A stretch of DNA of 64,000 nt, taken from contig JAERTJ010000162.1 in the NCBI GenBank assembly GCA_016844945.1, positions 1 to 64,000 on the forward strand. Direction: 5' to 3'. Each line of letters begins with the position of its first letter. Position 1 is the stretch's first letter. Both the position numbers and the translations under genes were made by a program. Source of the DNA: Fidelibacterota bacterium (GTDB taxonomy: Bacteria; Fidelibacterota; UBA8477; JABMPR01). The notes beneath the pieces were generated by a model. The model was not told the DNA's origin, searched no databases, and saw only the letters and a list, made by a program, of their open reading frames with translations. Shown in pieces: positions 47,361 to 58,300 of the stretch.

Positions 47361-47711
47361 ATGACTGACCTGAATAACATATCATTTTTCGAGGTTGCCT
47401 CAAAAGTTCTCAAGGCTTTGGGACATCCCGAACGTTTACGAATAATTGAATTCCTACACACTGGAGAACAGACGGTGGGACAAATCCAGGAAGAAATTGG
47501 ATTATCCCAACCCATTACATCACAGCATCTACGGTATATGCAGAGACGTAATATCCTGGCTTCCCGTCGGGAGGGGAACCGCTTCTACTATTCTCTGGCA
47601 AGCGAATTTATCCACAAACTTTTGGAATGTATGCGCACCTGTAAATTAAGTCTGGAAACAGGCGATGCACAGGTGGGGGACATCTTTCCCGAGACGAAAA
47701 GGAGTAAATGA
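47361..47711 (+). CDS. ArsR-family transcriptional regulator
   Basis: A 116-residue winged-helix regulator (KALGHPERLRIIEFL, then recognition region LSQPITSQHLRYM). It has cysteines only near the C-terminus (LECMRTCK). The classic ArsR CxC metal site is missing. Sulfur-responsive ArsR proteins such as SqrR/BigR use two cysteines for persulfide sensing; the spacing here (C-x3-C, C-terminal) differs, so persulfide or metal sensing is open. Its stop overlaps the tusA start (ATGA), so it is the first gene of the sulfur cluster and probably controls it. Confidence 0.9.
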   Translation: MTDLNNISFFEVASKVLKALGHPERLRIIEFLHTGEQTVGQIQEEIGLSQPITSQHLRYMQRRNILASRREGNRFYYSLASEFIHKLLECMRTCKLSLETGDAQVGDIFPETKRSK

Positions 47712-47950
47712 AAATGACAGATTATAACGCAGATCAGGTATTGGATTGCAAAGGATTGAATTGCCCCTTGCCCGTTATCAAGACCAAGAAGGCTATAGAT
47801 GCCATGGATAGCGGTCAGATCTTAAAAATGGTGGCAACCGATCCTGGATCAACAAATGACATTTCAGCCTGGGCATCTCGCACCGGACACGAACTCTTAT
47901 CTGGAGAGAAAACAGATGAAGGTTTTGTATACTTCATAAAAAAGAAGTAA
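47708..47950 (+). CDS. tusA: TusA-family sulfur carrier protein
   Basis: An 80-residue sulfur carrier. The catalytic Cys is C19 in LDCKGLNCPLPVIK, the CPxP motif of TusA/SirA; the second half has the usual TDPGSTNDISAW and GHELLSGE segments. It takes persulfide sulfur from a rhodanese or desulfurase and passes it on. It overlaps the arsR stop by 4 bases. With the DsrE2-like gene next to it, it matches the rhd-tusA-dsrE2 arrangement known from sulfur-oxidising bacteria. Confidence 0.93.
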   Translation: MKMTDYNADQVLDCKGLNCPLPVIKTKKAIDAMDSGQILKMVATDPGSTNDISAWASRTGHELLSGEKTDEGFVYFIKKK

Positions 47951-47968
47951 AACCACACAGGAGGATGT

Positions 47969-48484
47969 ATGACCGAAGCTAGACCTAAACGACTGGCAAT
48001 GATCGCTTCACAAGGCACTCTGGATTGGGCTTATCCCCCCTTTCTCCTTGCTTCAACAGCAGCGGCCATGGATATGGAGGTAGCAGTCTTTTTTACTTTC
48101 TATGGATTACCACTTCTAAATAAAAAAATTGAAGCACAAGTAGCACCCCAGACCAATCCCGCAATGCCCATGAAGATGCCTTTTGGTCCTGAAGGTTTTC
48201 AGAGTATTAGTTGGCCGATACCAAACATTCTCGCCAATAATATTCCTGGCTACGAAACCATGGCAACCTCCTTCATGAAAAAGACCTTCGCCAAAAAAGG
48301 CGTGGCCAGCGTAGAAGAGTTGCGTGAAATCTGTGTGGATCTGGGGGTTCGTTTGATCGGATGCCAGATGACTATGGATGTGTTCGGTTTCGAGACCAAG
48401 GACTTTATTGATGGTGTTGAACTTGGTGGTGCAGCTACATTTTTAGAATTCGCTGCTGATGCAGACATTTCACTTTTTATTTAA
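47969..48484 (+). CDS. dsrE2: DsrE2-like (DrsE_2 family) sulfur-trafficking protein
   Basis: A 171-residue protein of the DsrE/F/H-like DrsE_2 family. Signatures are MIASQGTLDWAYPPFLLAST, AVFFTFYGLPLL and a C-terminal pair of cysteines, C122 (REICVDLG) and C132 (IGCQMTMD), ten apart, as usual in this family. These proteins are thought to exchange persulfide sulfur with TusA. A strong AGGAGG precedes the ATG by 6 bases. It lies 19 bases after tusA and just before the broken TusA-like gene. Confidence 0.87.
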   Translation: MTEARPKRLAMIASQGTLDWAYPPFLLASTAAAMDMEVAVFFTFYGLPLLNKKIEAQVAPQTNPAMPMKMPFGPEGFQSISWPIPNILANNIPGYETMATSFMKKTFAKKGVASVEELREICVDLGVRLIGCQMTMDVFGFETKDFIDGVELGGAATFLEFAADADISLFI

Positions 48485-48503
48485 AATAAGGGCTGGCATC
48501 AAT

Positions 48504-48734
48504 TTGCACGCAGATGATTTTATTGAATTAGGTGACTGTGGGATGGGTATGCCAGTAATCCGGTCGAACCAGAGATTGAGAACCATGGAAATTGGTACCG
48601 TCTTACAGATTTCCAGCGCACATCCTTGAAGCGAATCTGATATCAAGGCCTGGTGCAGAGCCTCTGGACACAAACTTATAGATGTAAGCAAGATTGGGCA
48701 AAGTAACCATTTCTTTGTTCAACGAATGAAATAA
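48504..48734 (+). pseudogene. TusA-like protein gene interrupted by one in-frame TGA
   Basis: Reading from a TTG at 48504 gives 41 codons of a TusA-like protein (DDFIELGDCGMGMPVIRSNQ...), then TGA at 48627-48629, then 34 further codons in the same frame (SESDIKAWCRASGHKLIDVS...) to TAA at 48732. The two halves join into one domain, and the intact neighbour has Gly in the equivalent position (TDPGSTNDISAW against AHP-TGA-SESDIKAW), so a GGA-to-TGA change explains it. The CPxP carrier Cys is also missing. No good start with a ribosome-binding site is visible. It is most simply a pseudogene; readthrough or a sequence error are alternatives. Confidence 0.65.
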
Positions 48735-48749
48735 TGACGAGGAGGGGAC

Positions 48750-49907
48750 ATGTTAAACCCATATACAGCAAATGAGCTATTTGACTGGCTAAGACAACGA
48801 GAGAACTTCCTGATTCTTGATGTCAGGAATGAAGAAGATTTTGGCCGCTTTCAGGTCGAGAGTCCATATGAAGTGGATATGATTAATGTCCCCTATTTTG
48901 ACTTTATGGAGGAAGAGGAAGCATCTGTAGCGAAAGTACCGCGTGACAAAAAGGTCAGGGTGGTATGCGCAAAAGAAGGTTCTGCTCAATATGTGGGGGA
49001 AATTCTCGAGAGTCATGGATTTGAAGATGTTGGCTATTTGAAAGACGGGATTGTCTCCTGGGGCAATATGTTGGCACCTGTACGTGTCAATGACGAACTG
49101 GACAAATATGAGATCTGGCAATTTGTCAGACCGGGAAAGGCTTCGCTGAGTTGGGGGCTCATATCCAACGGTGAACTCTCCATTTTTGACCCATCCCGCA
49201 ATATTGAATTCTACCAGGCATTTGCAGATGAGCATGGCAGCAAAATTACCCAGACATTTGAAACACATCTCCAGGCTGATTATATCAGTGGCAGTCGATT
49301 TATTGCCGCAGCTGAAGGTTCAAAAGTTTTTGGTCATTCAGGTGATTTTATGGGAGCCAGTTTCGACTATACCGCCGTTGAGGATGGTCAAAAGTATCCC
49401 TCCTCTGAAGGGGGTCCTGTAATTGAAGTTATACATACACCGGGGCATACACCGGGGAGCACCTGTTACAAAATTGGTGGGAAATATATCGTTACTGGAG
49501 ATACCATCTTTCTGGTTTCCCTGGGAAGACCGGACCTGGGTGGTAAGGCAGTTGAATGGGCTGGAATGCTGTATGAAACCATGACTCAAAAGATCAAAAA
49601 GATGGATTCAGAGCTTAAGGTATTACCCGGGCACTATATCGAATGGGCAGAAGCAGACGACAATCTAATATTTACTGACACGCTGGGAAACATCCTAGCT
49701 ACCAATGCAGGCATCTATGGCATTGATTCAGAGGAAGCGTTTGTTCAATTCATCAAAGACAATATCCGTAAACAACCCGATGTATATGCTGAGATTCGTA
49801 AGGTAAATGCCGGTTGGCTGGATCCAGAAAGTGATGAACAGAGTTCTATGGATCTTGGAAAAAATGAATGTGCCGCATCTGCCTATGCAGCACAACAAGC
49901 ATCCTGA
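48750..49907 (+). CDS. Rhodanese / MBL-fold (persulfide-dioxygenase-like) fusion protein
   Basis: A 385-residue soluble fusion. The N-terminal rhodanese domain (1-115) has its catalytic Cys at C73 (VVCAKEGSAQ). An MBL-fold domain (~120-385) follows. Its first motif reads THLQADY, with H173 and D177 kept but the second and last His of HxHxDH replaced by Gln175 and Tyr178; H233 (HTPGHTPGS) and D251 (VTGDTIF) are present, and a later H295 (PGHYIEW). In ETHE1-type persulfide dioxygenases iron is held by just the equivalents of H173, H233 and D251. I infer oxidation of a carrier-bound or low-molecular-weight persulfide to sulfite. GAGGAGGGG precedes the start. Confidence 0.85.
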   Translation: MLNPYTANELFDWLRQRENFLILDVRNEEDFGRFQVESPYEVDMINVPYFDFMEEEEASVAKVPRDKKVRVVCAKEGSAQYVGEILESHGFEDVGYLKDGIVSWGNMLAPVRVNDELDKYEIWQFVRPGKASLSWGLISNGELSIFDPSRNIEFYQAFADEHGSKITQTFETHLQADYISGSRFIAAAEGSKVFGHSGDFMGASFDYTAVEDGQKYPSSEGGPVIEVIHTPGHTPGSTCYKIGGKYIVTGDTIFLVSLGRPDLGGKAVEWAGMLYETMTQKIKKMDSELKVLPGHYIEWAEADDNLIFTDTLGNILATNAGIYGIDSEEAFVQFIKDNIRKQPDVYAEIRKVNAGWLDPESDEQSSMDLGKNECAASAYAAQQAS

Positions 49908-49955
49908 TCAAAAAAAATTAATTGAACCCAATTATTTAAGGGGGAGACATAACTA

Positions 49956-51566
49956 ATGAATTATGGCTTTGTCATAGACAATCGCAAATGTATTGGTTGC
50001 CATGCCTGTACCGTTGCGTGCAAGTCGGAACACGATGTTGCCATCGGGGTCAATCGCACCCATGTCAAGTACATCGAAAAGGGCGTTTTCCCAGACGCCA
50101 GTCGCTCGTTTTCTGTCCATCGATGCAATCATTGTGAAGATGCTCCCTGTACGACGATCTGTCCTACCTCGGCGCTATACACCAGAATGGACGGTATCGT
50201 TGATTTTGACAATGATCGTTGTATCGGTTGTAAATCGTGTATGCAAGCCTGTCCTTATGATGCTCTGTATATCGATCCCAATACAAATACTGCAGCTAAG
50301 TGTAACTACTGCGCACACCGTGTTGATGGTGGTTATGAGCCCGCTTGCGTGGTGATCTGTCCCACTGAAGCAATCATATCTGGCGACCTGGATGATGCTC
50401 ATTCCAATATTTCATCGTTTGTTGCCATGGAAAATGTGGTAACACGAAAAGCTGAAAAAGGTACCAACCCCAATCTTTTCTATGTTGAAGGTGATTCGGA
50501 TATGCTCACGCCTACAAATGCAGAAAGAAGGGACAACTATCTGTGGAGTGAACAGGCATCGGGTGTTGGGCATCATGCTCCCGCAGCTGCTGGTCTGGAA
50601 AGAACAGAAAACCAAGCTGACCTTCTGGTCCAAATGGCTATCGAATCTCACGCTCAAAACGGTACCCAACCCGATCAACGCGCCATTGATAAGGTGCTGG
50701 AAGAGATCAAGGAAGAAGAAAAGAAGGCTACCCGCCGGGTTTACGATTCACCTGCCAAAGGCGTCTTGTGGGGATGGGAGGTCCCAGCATACATCTGGAC
50801 GAAATCTGTAGCTACTGGTCTTCTACTCGTATTGGCTCTGGCATCCTGGTTAGGCGCTGCTGCTGATACTGCTGTAGAGTTCAATGGCTTTATTGCCGCC
50901 ATCGTTTTCATGCTCTTCACTGGAGGCCTCCTGGTTAAAGATCTTGACCGACCCGACAGATTCCTCTACGTTTTGCTTAGACCAAATTGGTCCTCATGGC
51001 TGGTTCGTGGCGGTTATCTCATATCTGTATTTGGTGCCGCAATAACAGCGATGTTGGTAGATAACTATTTTGACCTCGGTTTACGCCAACTGATTCTGAA
51101 TATCAGTGCACCGATAGCACTCCTGACAGCCATTTATACGGCATTTCTACTGGCACAAGCCAAGGGTCGGGACTTATGGGGCAGTCATCTCGCTCCCGTT
51201 CACATGCTGGTACATGCATTGATAGCTGGTTCAGCAGCCTGGATGTTCCTTGATCCGAATAGCCCTGCAATCATAACTCTTATCTTGAAGATTGCCATTC
51301 TGGCTAATCTCACATTAATAACATTAGAATTTGTGACACCTCATGCAACTTCTGATACGCAGCGAGCACATCACTTGATGATCTCAGGCTACTATTCCAG
51401 ACATTTTTATCTGGGCATCATCATGGGCAACCTGGTACCTATCATCATGCTATACACGCTGGACACTTATTTTATGGTTCTGGTCGCAGCAGGTCTGGCA
51501 GCAATCGGTATCTTCTTGACGGAATTTGTTAGGGTACGAGTTCCTCAACTGATTCCACTGAGCTAA
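49956..51566 (+). CDS. Fused four-cluster ferredoxin / NrfD-DmsC-type membrane anchor (SoeB-SoeC-like)
   Basis: A 536-residue protein joining two subunits that are usually separate. Residues 1-~190 carry four 4Fe-4S sites (CIGCHACTVAC, CNHCEDAPCTTIC, CIGCKSCMQAC, CNYCAHRVDGGYEPACVVIC). A linker of ~80 residues follows, then about eight membrane helices (from ~275: SVATGLLLVLALASWLGAA, FIAAIVFMLFTGGLLV and onward) of the NrfD/PsrC/DmsC type with WSSWLVRGGY. No Tat or Sec signal precedes the ferredoxin part, so it faces the cytoplasm. Electrons from the molybdenum subunit encoded next would pass to quinone. Start ATG 49956 has GGGGGAG upstream. Confidence 0.88.
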   Translation: MNYGFVIDNRKCIGCHACTVACKSEHDVAIGVNRTHVKYIEKGVFPDASRSFSVHRCNHCEDAPCTTICPTSALYTRMDGIVDFDNDRCIGCKSCMQACPYDALYIDPNTNTAAKCNYCAHRVDGGYEPACVVICPTEAIISGDLDDAHSNISSFVAMENVVTRKAEKGTNPNLFYVEGDSDMLTPTNAERRDNYLWSEQASGVGHHAPAAAGLERTENQADLLVQMAIESHAQNGTQPDQRAIDKVLEEIKEEEKKATRRVYDSPAKGVLWGWEVPAYIWTKSVATGLLLVLALASWLGAAADTAVEFNGFIAAIVFMLFTGGLLVKDLDRPDRFLYVLLRPNWSSWLVRGGYLISVFGAAITAMLVDNYFDLGLRQLILNISAPIALLTAIYTAFLLAQAKGRDLWGSHLAPVHMLVHALIAGSAAWMFLDPNSPAIITLILKIAILANLTLITLEFVTPHATSDTQRAHHLMISGYYSRHFYLGIIMGNLVPIIMLYTLDTYFMVLVAAGLAAIGIFLTEFVRVRVPQLIPLS

Positions 51567-51606
51567 TGATGATTGTTATGAAGAAAATGAATCGGGGACT
51601 ATAGAT

Positions 51607-54465
51607 ATGAAAAGATCATGGATTGAAAAACTCGCTGAAGGTGTGGGAGTGATTCCCAAAATCTCCCAGCATGACGATACCTCCGAGAAATACGTACTGG
51701 AGGGACCACGTCCACTCTACAAATATCCACAACCAGAGCAATGGGACAATTTTGTTGAGTTGGATCCTCAGAGCTGGCCGGTTAAAAAAGAACGCCATTA
51801 CAGCATCGTCCCAACCACATGCTTTAACTGTGAATCAGCCTGTGGTTTGTTGGCATATATAGATAAGGAAGATGGGAAAATTCGAAAATTTGAGGGGAAT
51901 CCTCACCATCCTGGCTCTAGAGGACGAAACTGTGCCAAGGGTCCTGCTACCATTAATCAGGTAAAAGATACCGAACGGATTCTCTACCCTCTGAAACGCG
52001 TGGGAGAGCGTGGTGCCGGAGACTGGGAGCAGATCTCCTGGGATCAAGCCCTGGATGAAATTGCTGCAAAGATTCAGAAATCACTCAAGGCAAATCGTCG
52101 GGACAAGGTGGTCTACCATGTGGGCCGACCCGGTCATGAGGGCTATGCAGAACGCGTGTTGAAAGCCTGGGGTGTGGATGGTCATAATTCCCATACAAAC
52201 ATATGTTCAGCCGGAGCCCGTGCTGGATACGCCATGTGGCATAAATATGATCGTCCTTCACCAGATCATACCAATGCAAAAGTGATCCTCCTGGCGAGTT
52301 CACATCTGGAAACCGGTCATTATTTTAACCCACACGCCCAGCGTATCATGGAAGGCAAAATGAAGGGTGCTAAACTTATTGTTATGGATCCACGTCTATC
52401 CAATACAGCCTCCCATGCAGATTATTGGATGCCTACTTATCCAGGGTCAGAAGCGGCTGTTTTCCTGGCGATGGCTAAGATCATCCTGGAAGAAGGACTC
52501 TATGATCGTGAATACATTGAGACCTGGGTCAATTGGGATGAGTACCTGAAGGCAGAGCACCCTGATGTGGATGTTACCTTTGAAAATTTCATAGCAAAAA
52601 CCATTGAAGCATATGATGAATTCACGCCTGAATATGCAGCAACGGAAGCAGGGATTGAAGCTGAGCAAATTGTAGAAGTTGCCCATGTAGTGGCCTCAGC
52701 AGGCTCTCAACTTTCTACCCATGTCTGGCGCGGTGCTTCTATTGGTAATCTGGGGGGCTGGCAAGTGTCACGAACCCTCCATTTCCTGAATGTCCTAACT
52801 GGCTCTGTTGGAACACCTGGTGGAACATCACCCAGCGCCTGGAATAAATTTCACCCCGAGTTTTTTGATGTACCTCCTGGTCCACCCGCCTGGAATGAGC
52901 TGCATTTTCCACCGGAGTACACACTGAACCACTTTGAGATGAGTCAGATCCTACCGCACCTCGTAAAAGACGGCCGAGGAACCATGGATATGTACTTCAC
53001 CCGTGTCTTCAATCCTGTCTGGACCTATCCAGATGGATTCTCCTGGATTGAGATGCTCTCCAATCATGACTCCGTAGGCTGTCATGTGGCACTTACCCCT
53101 ACGTGGAATGAAACAGCGTTTTTCGCAGACTACGTGTTACCCATGGGACATGGACCTGAACGTCATGACCTCAATTCTTATGAAACCCATTCCGGTATGT
53201 GGATTGCCTTTCGTCAACCTGTGCTCCGTGAAAAGGCACGCCGCGATGGCAAAGAGGTGGAGTTCACCTACGAGGTCAATCCAGGTGAGGTCTGGGAAGA
53301 GGATGAGTTCTGGATTGAGCTCTCCTGGCGGATTGATAAGGATGATGATCTGGGGATACGTAAACACTTCATGAGCCCTTATCGTGAAGGTCAGAAAATC
53401 ACAATTGATGAATATTACCAATACATCTTTGAACATACTGAAGGCTTAAAAGAAACTGCTGAAAAAGAGGGTCTAACAGAGCTTGGCTACATGCGTAAAT
53501 ATGGTGCTTATAATGTGGTTCCAAGTCTTTATGAGAAGAATAAAACTGAGATGTCGGCCGATGCTCAGGCAGGTACAACCGTCAATGAAAGTGGTAACGT
53601 CATTAAAGACGGCGAAATTGTAGGTGTAGAGGACAAGGGCATAAAGTACAGTGGTTTCCCAACACCTTCAAAGAAGCAGGAGTTCTATTCGAAGACCACT
53701 GCAGATTTTGGATATCCAGATGAAGCCATTCCTGGCTATATCAAATCTCATGTGCATAGAGATCACATGGATGAGAGCCGTCATGAATGTGTCTTGCTAC
53801 CCAACTTCAGGTTGCCAACCCATATTCACTCAAGATCTGCTAACGCCAAATGGCTGACTGAGATCGCACACAGAAATCCTATCTGGATCAACACGTTGGA
53901 TGCAGAAAAACTAGGTGTGAAGACGGGTGAACTCTTAAAGATTGAAACTGAAATAGGTTGGTTTGTAGATAAGGTCTGGGTCACGGAGGCCATCAAACCA
54001 AGTGTTGTGGCTTGTTCGCATCACATTGGCCGCTGGCGCCGGAAACAGGATCAAGGCAATAAATTCATGACCAATACTGTTAAAATCAGAAATGAGGGCA
54101 ACGGCAAATGGCGTATGGAAACAGTAACCGGTGTCGAACCCTGGAAAACCGATGATCCTGATACCCAACGAGTCTGGTGGCGAGATGGGGGAGTTCATCA
54201 GAACATTACTCATGCCGTCCAGCCCGATCCAGTATCAGGTGCCCATTGTTGGCTCCAAAAGGTTGCCATATCAAAACCTGCAGCTGGTGAAAAGTATGGT
54301 GATGTCTTTGTGGATACTGAAAAGTCTTTTGCCCATTTCAAAAAATGGAATGGATGGGCAAAAGAAAGAGAAACACATCCTGATGGATTGAGACGTCCAC
54401 TATGGATGGGTAGACCCCTGGCACCAAGCAAAGAGTTATTTTATATAGACCAGAAAAAGGATTGA
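51607..54465 (+). CDS. Molybdopterin oxidoreductase, SoeA-like (putative sulfite dehydrogenase)
   Basis: A 952-residue catalytic subunit of the DMSO-reductase superfamily. The N-terminal 4Fe-4S site uses C72, C75, C79 and C109 (TCFNCESACG, NCAKG). The probable Mo ligand is C200 in NICSAGARAGY. The bis-MGD dinucleotide-binding domain is at the C-terminus. There is no twin-Arg signal, and 952 residues is close to SoeA and much longer than PsrA/PhsA (~760), which are exported. With the fused Fe-S/anchor subunit upstream and TusA, DsrE2 and persulfide-dioxygenase genes before it, oxidation of sulfite to sulfate in the cytoplasm is the best guess. Polysulfide or tetrathionate reductase-type activity remains possible. 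Confidence 0.8.
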   Translation: MKRSWIEKLAEGVGVIPKISQHDDTSEKYVLEGPRPLYKYPQPEQWDNFVELDPQSWPVKKERHYSIVPTTCFNCESACGLLAYIDKEDGKIRKFEGNPHHPGSRGRNCAKGPATINQVKDTERILYPLKRVGERGAGDWEQISWDQALDEIAAKIQKSLKANRRDKVVYHVGRPGHEGYAERVLKAWGVDGHNSHTNICSAGARAGYAMWHKYDRPSPDHTNAKVILLASSHLETGHYFNPHAQRIMEGKMKGAKLIVMDPRLSNTASHADYWMPTYPGSEAAVFLAMAKIILEEGLYDREYIETWVNWDEYLKAEHPDVDVTFENFIAKTIEAYDEFTPEYAATEAGIEAEQIVEVAHVVASAGSQLSTHVWRGASIGNLGGWQVSRTLHFLNVLTGSVGTPGGTSPSAWNKFHPEFFDVPPGPPAWNELHFPPEYTLNHFEMSQILPHLVKDGRGTMDMYFTRVFNPVWTYPDGFSWIEMLSNHDSVGCHVALTPTWNETAFFADYVLPMGHGPERHDLNSYETHSGMWIAFRQPVLREKARRDGKEVEFTYEVNPGEVWEEDEFWIELSWRIDKDDDLGIRKHFMSPYREGQKITIDEYYQYIFEHTEGLKETAEKEGLTELGYMRKYGAYNVVPSLYEKNKTEMSADAQAGTTVNESGNVIKDGEIVGVEDKGIKYSGFPTPSKKQEFYSKTTADFGYPDEAIPGYIKSHVHRDHMDESRHECVLLPNFRLPTHIHSRSANAKWLTEIAHRNPIWINTLDAEKLGVKTGELLKIETEIGWFVDKVWVTEAIKPSVVACSHHIGRWRRKQDQGNKFMTNTVKIRNEGNGKWRMETVTGVEPWKTDDPDTQRVWWRDGGVHQNITHAVQPDPVSGAHCWLQKVAISKPAAGEKYGDVFVDTEKSFAHFKKWNGWAKERETHPDGLRRPLWMGRPLAPSKELFYIDQKKD

Positions 54466-54562
54466 GATTTTGGGGTGTGATGGAACTGCCTTGTTTCATT
54501 ATACATGAATGTAACGCATATTGATATCCAGGTGAAGTAAACCTGATAGACAAAGGCGACAA

Positions 54563-55963
54563 GTGAATTTATATATCGATATCCTGTTTTGGATGCGTCA
54601 GAAGAAGTGGTTCCTTATCGCTTTGTTCTACGGTATGGCGATGCATCATTGGGTTACCCCCCCTCCTGAACTAAATCCTGCAGCCTTTGACGCATTGATT
54701 ATCATATCAATGGCGCTCATCCTGATCATTACAGAACCCCTCCCACTCCCTGCAATAGCTATGTTTATGCTGTTTATGCAGGTCGTGTTGGGGATAGATA
54801 CGGCCAATAATGTGGCTTCCTCCTTTATGAATGATGCTGTGTTTTTTATCATGGGCTCGCTGATGTTGGCGGTGGCAATTGTAAGTCAGGGGCTCGATAA
54901 ACGACTGGCTCTGGGTATTATAACACTCACGGGTCATAAGACCTGGCGCATTATCGCTGGTTTTACGGCAATTTCAGCCATCCTATCCTCTTTTATTGGT
55001 GAGCACACCGTAGCAGCCATGATGATGCCAGTTGGCTTGACGCTGGTGAGGTATGCACACAAAGATCCCAAGAAAGTTGCTGGTCTGACTGCAGCCTTGT
55101 TGTTTTCCATCGCTTATGGTGCGACGATTGGGTCAATTGGCACACCTTCTGGAGGTGGACGCAATGTGATTATGATGAACTACTGGGCTGAATTTGGAGC
55201 TGGAACCGTATCATATCTACAATGGATGAAATATGTCTACCCTATGGTCCTGGTACAGATCCCCATTACCGTTCTGATTCTGCTATGGACATTCAAACCT
55301 GAACAAAACAATCTGGATAGCGCTGTGCGCAAGTTAGTGATAGATGTGGCTCGCTCGGGCAAAGTGAAGGGACGTGAATGGCTCGCCATCATTCTTTTCA
55401 TTCTGGTATTTCTGGGATGGGTGTTTCTTAGTGAAGACTTTGGCCTGGGGATTATTGCCCTCCTTGGGGTTTTCCTGTATCTGGCTTTTGGGCTGGTGGA
55501 GTGGCGAGATTTAAACCGTAAGACCAACTGGGGCGTAATTCTACTTTTTGGCTCAGCCATTTCGATTGGAATCCAGATGAACGAGACGGGAGCAGCTGAA
55601 TGGGTTGCCCATGTCATCATTACGAATTTGGGGAAAGTGATTAGTAGTCCAGAAGTACTCCAGGGGAGTGTATCAGTGCTACTGACAGGAATCATGTCAA
55701 ACATACTGAGTAGTTCTGCAACCGTGGCTGTCGTAGGACCCATTGTTCTCGATCTGGGAGGTGACAAAATCCTCATTGGTTTTGCCACAGCTATTGCCTC
55801 GGCGTTTGGATATTTTACAGCAGTGGCAGCTCCTGCCTGCACTATTATCTATTCCAGCGGATTGGTTAAATCGAAAGATTTTCTACGAGCCGGTTGGAAA
55901 ATGGGGGTTTTATCTGTTGTTAGCCTGTTGGGTTTAGCTTTATTATGGTGGCCATTATTATGA
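54563..55963 (+). CDS. SLC13/DASS-family anion transporter (first copy)
   Basis: A 466-residue polytopic membrane protein of the divalent-anion:Na+ symporter family. The start is GTG at 54563, with AAAGG upstream. Family features are the paired hairpin regions TIGSIGTPSGGGRNVIMMNYW and SSATVAVVGPIVLDLGG, and the MNDAVFFIMGSLMLAVAI helix. Family members carry sulfate, dicarboxylates or citrate. Placed directly after the sulfite-dehydrogenase-like genes, sulfate or sulfite movement is plausible. It ends in an ATGA overlap with the stress-protein gene. Confidence 0.88.
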   Translation: MNLYIDILFWMRQKKWFLIALFYGMAMHHWVTPPPELNPAAFDALIIISMALILIITEPLPLPAIAMFMLFMQVVLGIDTANNVASSFMNDAVFFIMGSLMLAVAIVSQGLDKRLALGIITLTGHKTWRIIAGFTAISAILSSFIGEHTVAAMMMPVGLTLVRYAHKDPKKVAGLTAALLFSIAYGATIGSIGTPSGGGRNVIMMNYWAEFGAGTVSYLQWMKYVYPMVLVQIPITVLILLWTFKPEQNNLDSAVRKLVIDVARSGKVKGREWLAIILFILVFLGWVFLSEDFGLGIIALLGVFLYLAFGLVEWRDLNRKTNWGVILLFGSAISIGIQMNETGAAEWVAHVIITNLGKVISSPEVLQGSVSVLLTGIMSNILSSSATVAVVGPIVLDLGGDKILIGFATAIASAFGYFTAVAAPACTIIYSSGLVKSKDFLRAGWKMGVLSVVSLLGLALLWWPLL

Positions 55964-56880
55964 CAAATAAGCAAAAGCATATCGATCCCAAAAAACTCAA
56001 GTTTTTAACCGCAGTGAGTAGTTCTGAATATTCAAAACCAACACTCAAGTTAGGTTCTCTGATTGCCTCAGTTTTTGATGCCAATCTGGGTGTCGTGTAT
56101 GTTGGTGAAAGAGCCAGTGAGTTCCATGGAAGTTCAGTAAATCTAACCCGTCAAAACCTGGATAACTGGAATATCATCCACCCTGGTCTGGAGGTTTTGG
56201 AGTGGGCACTTAAGGAACTTAAGAAACTGAATCCTGAAGATGAGAATTTAGCAAAAATTCGATTCAATGCAGACCATGTCTATGAAGAGGATGGTCGCGT
56301 CAGAGTTTTCCTGCCAGGCGATGAGGTTTGTCGCATTGAACTGATTCTGCGTGAAGGCGAGCTTGTGAATCAGTTGAGAAAAGAAATTCAGCTGGAAAAT
56401 TATGATCTTGCCATTATTGGGGGAAGTCAGAACAAACGCCATCTGGCACATTCATTGATCCAGTACCTGCCCTCATCCATATTTGTACTACAGAAGTTTA
56501 ATCCACGCAAGAAGTACAAATTGCTGCTCCTGGTTGATGATTCCAACGCGACTCGGAAGTCTGTTGAATGGGGTGCCATGATAGCAGAAAAATTGGGCTG
56601 GCCAGTCCGAACACTTACTGTCTCAAAAACAAAACGCTTTGGCGCTGGATATCAAGGTGCTGCAGATCTGGCGAAATCATATTTTGATTCCAAAGGCATT
56701 GAAGTAGAACAATTTTTTCTTACTGGCGATCCTGTACGGACTTTTGTTGAATTTGCTGGTGATAATCATTTCGTCATCATGGGTGCCTCAAGCTTGAACC
56801 CAGTAAAGCAATTTCTATTTGGTAGTAAACCCATCAAGACACTTGAACAGACTGACGTACCCATTCTAATCGTACGTTAA
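55960..56880 (+). CDS. Tandem universal-stress-protein (UspA) domain protein
   Basis: A 306-residue cytosolic protein. ATG 55960 overlaps the stop of the transporter gene (ATGA), so I prefer it to the ATG at 55945. Two USP-like halves are visible: N-terminal (LKFLTAVSSSEYSKPTLKLG, YDLAIIGGSQNKR) and C-terminal (KLLLLVDDSNATRKSVEWG, FVIMGASSLNPVKQFLFG, TDVPILIVR); the second keeps the G-2x-G-9x-GS ATP-binding pattern loosely. It may regulate the two transporters that flank it. Tight coupling to both supports this. Confidence 0.85.
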   Translation: MTNKQKHIDPKKLKFLTAVSSSEYSKPTLKLGSLIASVFDANLGVVYVGERASEFHGSSVNLTRQNLDNWNIIHPGLEVLEWALKELKKLNPEDENLAKIRFNADHVYEEDGRVRVFLPGDEVCRIELILREGELVNQLRKEIQLENYDLAIIGGSQNKRHLAHSLIQYLPSSIFVLQKFNPRKKYKLLLLVDDSNATRKSVEWGAMIAEKLGWPVRTLTVSKTKRFGAGYQGAADLAKSYFDSKGIEVEQFFLTGDPVRTFVEFAGDNHFVIMGASSLNPVKQFLFGSKPIKTLEQTDVPILIVR

Positions 56881-56893
56881 AAAAGGTCTCTCA

Positions 56894-58300
56894 ATGTTAC
56901 ACATTTCCGCTGATGTTCTGTTTTGGTTTCAGCGGTCACGTTGGCTCCTCATTTCATACACTTTGGGCGCAATTCTCTATTTCTTTGTGCCTCAACCTGA
57001 AGGCCTCAGTCTGGAAGGTTACCGTATCCTGATCATCATTTTGATGACCCTGATCCTCATCTTGAAAGAACCACTCCCCCTGCCTGCAATTGCGCTACAA
57101 CTCCTTTTCTGGCAGGTGATCATGGGAGGGAGCACTTCCAACGAAGTCGGGGGTTATTTCATGAATGATGCAGTCTTTTTTATCATGGGATCCCTCATGT
57201 TGGCAGTAGCCATTGTCAGTCAGGGTCTGGATAAACGATTAGCCTTGGGTATCATCAAAATTACCGGGAATAAAACCTGGCGGATTGTAGCAGGGCTTAC
57301 CGCGATTTCAGCCGTTCTTTCCAGCTTTGTTGGCCCTCATATGGTGACCGCAATGATGCTCCCCGTGGCACTCACCCTGATTCGATTTACATCCAAGAAA
57401 GGTCAGACTAATAAACAAATGGTAGCCGCACTACTTTTCTCAATCGCCTATGGAGCAACTATCGGATCAATCGGAACTCCCAGTGGTGGGGGTCGGAATG
57501 TGATCATGATGAATTACTGGGAAGAATTTGGATCAGGCAGCCTGAGCTACATTGCATGGATCAAAAGGGTCTACCCCATGGTCCTGATTCAGATTCCAAT
57601 TACTACCCTGATTATTTTGAAAACATTTCCTCCAGAGATACAGGTGCTGGACACCGCTGTGCGTCGTCTGACAGCTGAGGTGGGACGTGCTGGTAAGCCA
57701 ACATACAAAGAACTGCTTTCAGTGGGATTGTTTGCCGGGGTTTTGTTTGGGTGGATAGCTCTCAGTGAAACGTATGGTTTGGGTGCCATTGCCCTGTTTG
57801 GTGTATTTGTATATCTGGCATTTGGGCTGGTTACCTGGAAAGATTTGAATTCAGGTGTCAACTGGGGTGTCATTCTACTTTTTGGTGCAACTATTTCAAT
57901 CGGTGTGCAAATGAAAAATACCGGTGGTGCAGCCTGGCTGGCAGGCCTGAGTGTTCAGTTTCTGGAGGGAATCATTCCCAACATTGATGTGCTTAGGGCA
58001 GTGGTTTCAGTGGCTCTGAGTGGTGTGATGTCCAATCTGTTGAGTAGCTCAGCCACAGTCGCAGTTGTGGGTCCAGTTGTCCTGAATCTGGGGGGTGATC
58101 CAATACTTCTCGGTCTCGCTTCGGTGATCTCTTCGGCGTTCGGCTATTTTACTGCAGTTGCGGCACCGGCTTGTACGATTATCTACTCCAGTGGTCTCGT
58201 GAAAGCTACAGACTTCCTAAGGGCTGGCTGGAAAATGGCAATTATGTCCATTGTGTCCCTGAGTCTCCTGGCTTTCCTCTGGTGGCCGCTTTTCCAGTAG
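56894..58300 (+). CDS. SLC13/DASS-family anion transporter (second copy)
   Basis: A 468-residue paralogue of the transporter at 54563-55963, with long identical stretches (MNDAVFFIMGSLMLAVAI, TIGSIGTPSGGGRNVIMMNY, CTIIYSSGLVK). AAGG lies 8 bases upstream of the ATG. The two differ in the loop residues near the N-terminus and around the central linker, so they may form a heterodimer or differ in substrate. Last gene of the sulfur cluster; repeat-rich DNA follows without a clear terminator. Confidence 0.88.
   Translation: MLHISADVLFWFQRSRWLLISYTLGAILYFFVPQPEGLSLEGYRILIIILMTLILILKEPLPLPAIALQLLFWQVIMGGSTSNEVGGYFMNDAVFFIMGSLMLAVAIVSQGLDKRLALGIIKITGNKTWRIVAGLTAISAVLSSFVGPHMVTAMMLPVALTLIRFTSKKGQTNKQMVAALLFSIAYGATIGSIGTPSGGGRNVIMMNYWEEFGSGSLSYIAWIKRVYPMVLIQIPITTLIILKTFPPEIQVLDTAVRRLTAEVGRAGKPTYKELLSVGLFAGVLFGWIALSETYGLGAIALFGVFVYLAFGLVTWKDLNSGVNWGVILLFGATISIGVQMKNTGGAAWLAGLSVQFLEGIIPNIDVLRAVVSVALSGVMSNLLSSSATVAVVGPVVLNLGGDPILLGLASVISSAFGYFTAVAAPACTIIYSSGLVKATDFLRAGWKMAIMSIVSLSLLAFLWWPLFQ

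Follow-up and report, generated by a model that had tools for sequence, protein, structure and literature searches.

Gene clusters combining sHdr proteins with LbpA are known from dissimilatory sulfur oxidisers, and one class of them, hdr-lbpA group III, also carries EtfBA (available text of PMC6067878). In the available parts of PMC6067878, PMC10332631 and PMC12423496 such clusters share TusA and DsrE carriers and an ArsR-type regulator with the locus described here, an island of ten genes (47361-58300, plus strand) in a 64,000-nucleotide stretch, hereafter the window, of contig JAERTJ010000162.1 from a Fidelibacterota bacterium (GCA_016844945.1). The window differs from them in having a fusion of rhodanese with a domain resembling persulfide dioxygenase (PDO) in place of sHdr-LbpA, in having SoeBC-SoeA built in and in a UGA-containing TusA-like gene, tusA2. 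Relatives of the island resemble the EtfBA-linked group III in their LbpA-like, LplA-like, radical-SAM, sHdr-like and EtfBA genes. For the molybdoenzyme of the island, the described counterpart is SoeABC of A. vinosum and A. aeolicus, to which it is likened by architecture only. The available text of PMC8076601 gives the same molybdenum/[4Fe-4S] subunit without a twin-arginine translocation (Tat)-like motif, the same four-cluster subunit and the same NrfD anchor, with SoeAB thought to face the N-side, whereas in the island B and C are fused and placed before A.

We consider it likely that the island serves to oxidise sulfane sulfur in the cytoplasm, as one version of a unit with two interchangeable sulfite-forming cassettes, and that its frame has crossed between SAR406 bacteria and archaea of Marine Group II (MGII). 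This reading is built on gene order, cassette exchange, metal-ligand positions, the lack of a Tat-like motif, and the UGA codon with its hairpin, tRNA-Sec and SelB; from these sequence features we propose which reactions run and in which direction, where the sulfur comes from, which ion is transported and what the regulator senses. TusA and DsrE2, together with a selenocysteine-containing TusA2, would gather bound sulfur and pass it on. The rhodanese domain would load this sulfur as a persulfide, which the fused PDO domain would convert with O2 to sulfite, and a SoeABC-like complex on the cytoplasmic side would then oxidise sulfite to sulfate and pass the electrons to quinone. DASS carriers would transport an anion such as sulfate, whilst ArsR would keep the unit repressed as long as sulfur is lacking. 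Either rhodanese-PDO, as here, or sHdr-LbpA-Etf, as in relatives, would fit into the frame arsR-tusA-dsrE2 ... soeBC-soeA. It is very likely, moreover, that TusA2 represents a new selenoprotein family, with a TusA fold and selenocysteine (Sec) at the start of helix 2 replacing the CPxP cysteine, acting as a sulfur or redox carrier in this cassette-swapping frame moved between SAR406 and MGII.

The island and its frame in SAR406 and Marine Group II

The source contig (G000:C162) belongs to a metagenome-assembled genome (MAG) of 4.73 Mb with 90.7% completeness and 6% contamination, and the SoeA of its closest named relatives, Candidatus Neomarinimicrobiota (SAR406, Marinisomatota), is 93% identical. 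All ten genes of the island were found on the plus strand, as the initial annotation had described, with gaps of -19 to +97 nt when tusA2 (its tusA') is counted as a gene. ArsR and tusA overlap by an ATGA, and dass1 and usp by 19 nt. Pfam and NCBIfam matches fit the gene labels given earlier. After arsR come tusA (47708-47950; Pfam TusA), with its CPxP sulfur-carrier motif intact, and dsrE2 (47969-48484), encoding a DsrE2 sulfur carrier that scores 210.5 bits against the NF047629 cut-off of 210.

The gene order was sought in related genomes by comparing the best 80 of 277 loci (31 SAR406 and 44 archaeal, assigned from their titles or from SoeA similarity, and 5 other). Among these, arsR, tusA, dsrE2, rhodanese-PDO, soeBC and soeA stand in order in seven SAR406 and seven archaeal (MGII) loci; in the remaining loci contig ends cut in, a gene is missing, or soeBC-soeA stands alone within the stretch. 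Because it recurs in other genomes, the gene order is not due to chance, and the core is clearly not unique to this contig. Locus L072 lies on a 176-kb contig titled Poseidoniales.

The same frame holds an sHdr-LbpA block in the SAR406 genomes G195, G106, G127, G199, G193 and G231 and in the MGII genomes G246 and G362. In SAR406 the block encodes a DsrE3-like protein, a GcvH-like protein (LbpA), a thioredoxin-like protein, Fe-S and CCG proteins, an FAD subunit, EtfBA and a 720-amino-acid CCG/Fe-S protein, and in most loci lipoate-ligase and radical-SAM genes too; sHdr names were assigned by domain and order after the published hdr-lbpA clusters. In G231, of the same genus as the source MAG, the block occupies the same site, flanked by acnA and the dass genes (L173 and L035, on a single contig). 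G246 and G362 show this gene order between arsR and soeA as well but have no tusA2. The wider frame exists in two versions, the island as first annotated and another that carries sHdr-LbpA. The same sHdr order without tusA2 was also seen in MGII loci L185, L186 and L109, running from arsR to soeA in L185 and L186. In SAR406, loci L160-L170 and L173 hold an sHdr-LbpA-Etf cluster with lipoate genes, for which we found no open paper in this phylum, and L040 has arsR-tusA-dsrE2 and soeBC-soeA with only partial matches to the 720-amino-acid CCG/Fe-S protein between them.

At E 1e-50, 12 of the 245 SAR406 genomes have sHdrB1 and 17 have rhodanese-PDO, and none has both. The MGII order sample (292 genomes) gave 3 and 19, again without overlap. 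Exchange of the cassettes at one site is a stronger point than this mutual exclusion. A full tusA2 accompanies either cassette, in 7/17 rhodanese-PDO genomes and 9/12 sHdr genomes. Further arrangements include a rhodanese-TauE-soeBC-soeA run in Halomicrococcus and, on plasmid pRHL3 of Rhodococcus jostii RHA1, a 32% full-length homologue of the PDO-like fusion divergent from dsrE2-tusA-soeBC-soeA.

The initial annotation had noted that dsr, sox and shdr were lacking from the window. We judged each by one marker over the whole MAG, window included. The dsrA marker had no match anywhere in the MAG, and SoxB was below its cut-off in 19/19 genomes of the genus; a dsr or sox pathway was rejected on these single markers. 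For shdr, sHdrB1 had no match in the MAG at E 1e-50; within the genus, sHdr-LbpA forms the other version of the island in G231. With 90.7% completeness and 6% contamination, absence of a marker from the MAG is not proof.

In a SoeA tree, MGII sequences form one clade (100/100) nested among those of SAR406, which suggests that SoeA moved from SAR406 to MGII. A single SAR406 SoeA clade was rejected (approximately unbiased test, p-AU 1e-5; 34 rows, LG+G4). A second tree gave the same picture, with a Holophagae row joining MGII; this sequence (L085), which has a long branch, is placed next to the MGII clade. The SoeA trees used 49 and 34 of 88 rows, sequences below 850 amino acids having been removed beforehand. 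The forks that set the nearest SAR406 kin of MGII SoeA are weak (46-47% bootstrap). In the rhodanese-PDO tree SAR406 forms one clade (99/99), which does not settle the direction of transfer for rhodanese-PDO.

TusA2, a UGA-containing TusA-like gene

The tusA2 gene (48504-48734, plus strand) comprises 76 codons and a stop, from a TTG start to TAA, and its sole interruption is a TGA at 48627-48629. The initial annotation had given it in brackets as tusA'. It looks broken, but rather than a decayed copy we find a conserved UGA-containing gene that most likely encodes a selenoprotein. The first five relatives compared all have TGA at the same codon. Searching the 245 phylum genomes returned, besides ordinary TusA, 20 TusA2-type copies covering the UGA site, spread over five families (f1, f17, f19, f26 and f27). 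TGA is present in 17/17 full copies and in two partial ones (G189 and G139), and a single degenerate copy (G147) has TCA (Ser). G082 and G131 have near-identical copies, one of which may be a contaminant; over 60 nt, 17 of the 19 TGA-bearing copies are distinct. The partial copies (G139:C42 and G189:C178) have kept the UGA although their reading frames are poor elsewhere.

Downstream of the TGA, the ratio of nonsynonymous to synonymous substitution (dN/dS) is 0.04-0.37 in ten pairs, indicating purifying selection. Codons +7 to +10 are almost frozen, with Ala as GCC in 19/19 copies, and in most of these they fold into a GUG-looped hairpin. In the window this hairpin (48646-48663) starts 16 nt past the UGA and has GUG as its apical loop; this agrees with the rule that a bacterial selenocysteine insertion sequence (SECIS) has a G in a small apical loop (available text of PMC1088965). 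The hairpin averages 6.05 pairs, against 2.59 +- 0.41 (maximum 3.89 of 1000) with synonymous recoding, and its covariation is 0.112 against 0.036 in shuffled alignments, none of 500 being as high. The 19 copies behind the hairpin and codon counts were chosen for having the stop, G147 being the only site-covering copy without it. With the columns taken raw, RNAalifold found just a weak stem (-1.1), since subgroups differ in the bulge; the hairpin was therefore scored explicitly, with a structure drawn from the same TusA2 sequences. A known Rfam element was rejected, Rfam giving no match at the hairpin.

The source MAG has both tRNA-Sec (anticodon TCA) and SelB. Each is over its cut-off in 17/19 genomes of the genus, compared with five (tRNA-Sec) and two (SelB) of 14 control genomes. 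Within the phylum, SelB is over cut-off in 16/17 genomes with a full tusA2 and in 150/228 others (p = 0.010, ignoring relatedness and completeness). Genome-wide reassignment of TGA was rejected since it is the ordinary stop of 4/10 island genes. The predicted fold of TusA2 (predicted local distance difference test score, pLDDT, 76; six sequences) is nearest to TsuB and TusA (8j4c, 3lvj), the same fold as these sulfur carriers. They have CPxP, whereas TusA2 has CGMGMP and its putative Sec just before helix 2.

It is conceivable that the in-frame TGA is a true stop, leaving a pseudogene or two short peptides. TGA is mechanically a stop, the copy in the window starts with TTG and shows no clear ribosome site, and the G147 copy is plainly degenerate. 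This explanation is nonetheless very improbable given the same TGA codon in full and partial copies of five families, the selection beyond it, the SECIS-like hairpin and the presence of Sec machinery without TGA reassignment; a pseudogene was rejected on the retained TGA and the purifying selection past it. Several observations do tell against a selenoprotein with the proposed role. None of the 20 copies is a Cys homologue at the UGA codon, the one Ser being in the degenerate copy. Two-sided covariation occurs in only one of six pairs, a slid control reaches 0.087 against 0.112, and the number of pair types is unremarkable (100/500). The unit can do without TusA2, no intact copy having been found in 10/17 rhodanese-PDO genomes, and tusA2 is missing from both MGII sHdr loci read.

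A tblastn search of plasmids with TusA2 gave 29 records, all below 60% identity (maximum 33.9% among the 20 listed). The available text of two marine selenoproteome papers lists DsrE and rhodanese families; 'SirA' is in neither main text and COG0425 is absent from the first. SirA-like proteins are tied to selenium use but not described as Sec proteins in the available text of PMC2432076, and no TusA selenoprotein appeared among the papers listed in literature searches.

Proposed sulfite formation and the direction of SoeBC-SoeA

The fusion gene (48750-49907, plus strand) matches Rhodanese and Lactamase_B. Rhodanese Cys73, the metallo-beta-lactamase (MBL) residues His173, His233, Asp251 and His295, and C-terminal Cys374 are invariant in 22/22 rows. 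The PDO iron-ligand positions (His, His, Asp), aligned with 4ysb, are likewise kept in 22/22; we take these to be the mononuclear Fe ligands. The predicted structure (pLDDT 86) is nearest to 3r2u and 3tp9 (MBL-rhodanese proteins), BpPRF, ETHE1 and PDOs. Described PDO-rhodanese fusions (BpPRF, 5ve3; 3r2u; 3tp9) also combine rhodanese with a PDO-type MBL domain and keep the iron-ligand positions, but the window fusion has its rhodanese N-terminal (C-terminal in 3tp9), HxQxDY and an extra C-terminal Cys. Presumably the BpPRF rhodanese is C-terminal too, and 3r2u is, we assume, CstB.

SoeBC (49956-51566), with 4Fe-4S and NrfD domains and 16 Cys that fit four [4Fe-4S] clusters, and SoeA (51607-54465), with a molybdopterin oxidoreductase match, together provide a molybdopterin/[4Fe-4S] catalytic subunit, a four-cluster subunit and an NrfD anchor. 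A Tat-like motif (by regular expression) is absent from window SoeA and from all 79 SoeA homologues, and the molybdenum/Fe-S/quinone complex probably faces the cytoplasm. The analysis thus supports the initial annotation in placing a sulfane-sulfur relay, a PDO-like fusion and such a complex in one unit, and in reading it as oxidative. The initial annotation had also named a SoeA position inside known reductases as an outcome that would refute it. Window SoeA scores far below the curated cut-offs for PhsA (198/694 bits), TtrA (100/1750), ArrA (130/1600) and DmsA (183/778). In a tree that lacks characterised SoeA, PsrA, TtrA or ArrA it lies distant from annotated PhsA and DmsA, the branches being very long, so that this condition is answered only in part.

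The absence of those characterised sequences is one of several points that weaken the case for sulfane-sulfur oxidation. The HxHxDH of PDO is HxQxDY in 20/22 fusions, and the curated Blh model NF040641 was far from matched (21.8 against 625 bits). The dithiol pair is missing from ArsR. Exclusion between the cassettes is weak, with P(0 overlap) of 0.028 among the 58 SoeA genomes and 0.41 among all 245, relatedness ignored. Neither cassette was found in 32/58 SoeA-positive SAR406 genomes, so the SoeABC-like pair also occurs without cassettes; 2 of the 58 have only a 32-35% paralogue.

Instead of a dioxygenase, the MBL domain could be a thioesterase or hydrolase that frees sulfur from a carrier, as glyoxalase-II models match the domain (GSH_gloB at 46.5 bits, far under the cut-off of 200.8) and its second-site residues have changed. 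We regard this as improbable: all three positions of the PDO ligands are without variation, the closest folds are MBL-rhodanese proteins and PDOs, and the second metal site, changed in 20/22, is, we assume, the one that dinuclear hydrolases use. A further alternative concerns direction, namely that the complex is a polysulfide or sulfur reductase (PsrABC), with rhodanese, TusA and DsrE2 supplying polysulfide for anaerobic respiration. Marinimicrobia 'psrABC', read as polysulfide reductase in the available text of PMC5688066, is probably the same molybdoenzyme, equated by phylum and isolate names, not by sequence. The isolates from which relatives L035, L036 and L099 derive bear the names SI053 and SI036, taken as Saanich Inlet, and there are few other PsrA-like matches at E 1e-60, a threshold that could miss true PsrA. 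According to the same source, psrABC expression in SHBH1141 is higher under anoxic to sulfidic conditions, and that in Arctic96B-7 peaks where H2S is undetected. The closest PDB matches of SoeA include ArrA and a T. thermophilus Psr-type enzyme, and the available text of PMC8359478 finds Phs, Psr and Sre indistinguishable by sequence and leaves the reaction direction open. We nevertheless think a reductase quite improbable. The Tat-like motif is lacking throughout, and the PhsA, TtrA and ArrA cut-offs are missed by far. In many loci of both domains the complex adjoins a sulfite-forming cassette, and TauE/SafE lies within 2.5 kb downstream of soeA in 22/42 MGII loci with room, though in 0/31 SAR406 loci. 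Rhodococcus, an aerobe, has a 55% relative. Replacement of one cassette by the other, and their non-co-occurrence, favour sulfane-sulfur oxidation via sulfite over the published polysulfide reduction, and the context of the island points to sulfite oxidation.

The same chemistry might instead detoxify sulfide, persulfide or sulfite from cysteine or organosulfur breakdown, without yielding energy from environmental sulfur. The ten other window proteins scanned were peptidases, a beta-eliminating lyase, hydrolases, oxidoreductases and similar, SoxB and DsrA were not over cut-off where tested, and many relatives in the best 80 of 277 loci have soeBC-soeA with neither cassette within the stretch. 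Quinone coupling through the NrfD anchor and the alternative sHdr cassette suggest, however, that the electrons are used, and a purely detoxifying role appears rather unlikely.

We found no open paper that connects Marinimicrobia or Poseidoniales with sHdr or SoeA in a sulfur-oxidation sense (subscription papers were outside the scope). Literature on soeA and Marinimicrobia, in the text available, assigns soeA to other bacteria, and in Rinke 2018, which deals with MGII, the main text contains no word that starts with 'sulf'. SAR406 and MGII are abundant uncultured ocean heterotrophs. If the proposed unit is correct, so that both groups share an island that forms sulfite and oxidises it, the Marinimicrobia 'polysulfide reductase' would have to be read as the final step of an oxidative pathway, and some MGII would count as candidate sulfur oxidisers. 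A selenium-containing TusA would put selenocysteine at a sulfur-carrier step. Parts could be tested in cultured hosts, and a related unit is available in R. jostii RHA1.

Regulator, transporters and further DsrE2 genes

The arsR gene (47361-47711; Pfam HTH_5) encodes an ArsR-family repressor of 116 amino acids. Its Cys90 is retained in 22/23 aligned rows, and no second SqrR/sHdrR-type Cys is conserved; two sensing cysteines are described for sHdrR in the available text of PMC12423496. The BigR model scored 55 bits against a cut-off of 155. An SqrR-type sensor was rejected, as only Cys90 is widely conserved.

Downstream of soeA lie dass1 (54563-55963, GTG start), usp (55945-56880, Usp match) and dass2 (56894-58300), encoding a universal stress protein between two DASS anion transporters that score 231.6 and 226 bits (cut-off 198.6). 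A usp gene adjoins DASS in further SAR406 soe loci. Read by eye, both carriers have GEHT/GPHM where the first SNT motif is expected. SNT is, we assume, a DASS substrate motif; its first copy is missing in both, and the transported ion is putative.

Two more DsrE2 genes are present in the source MAG, on G000:C168 (L001) and G000:C44 (L003). In L001, DsrE2 lies beside TusA and, by eye, a cysteine-synthase-like gene.

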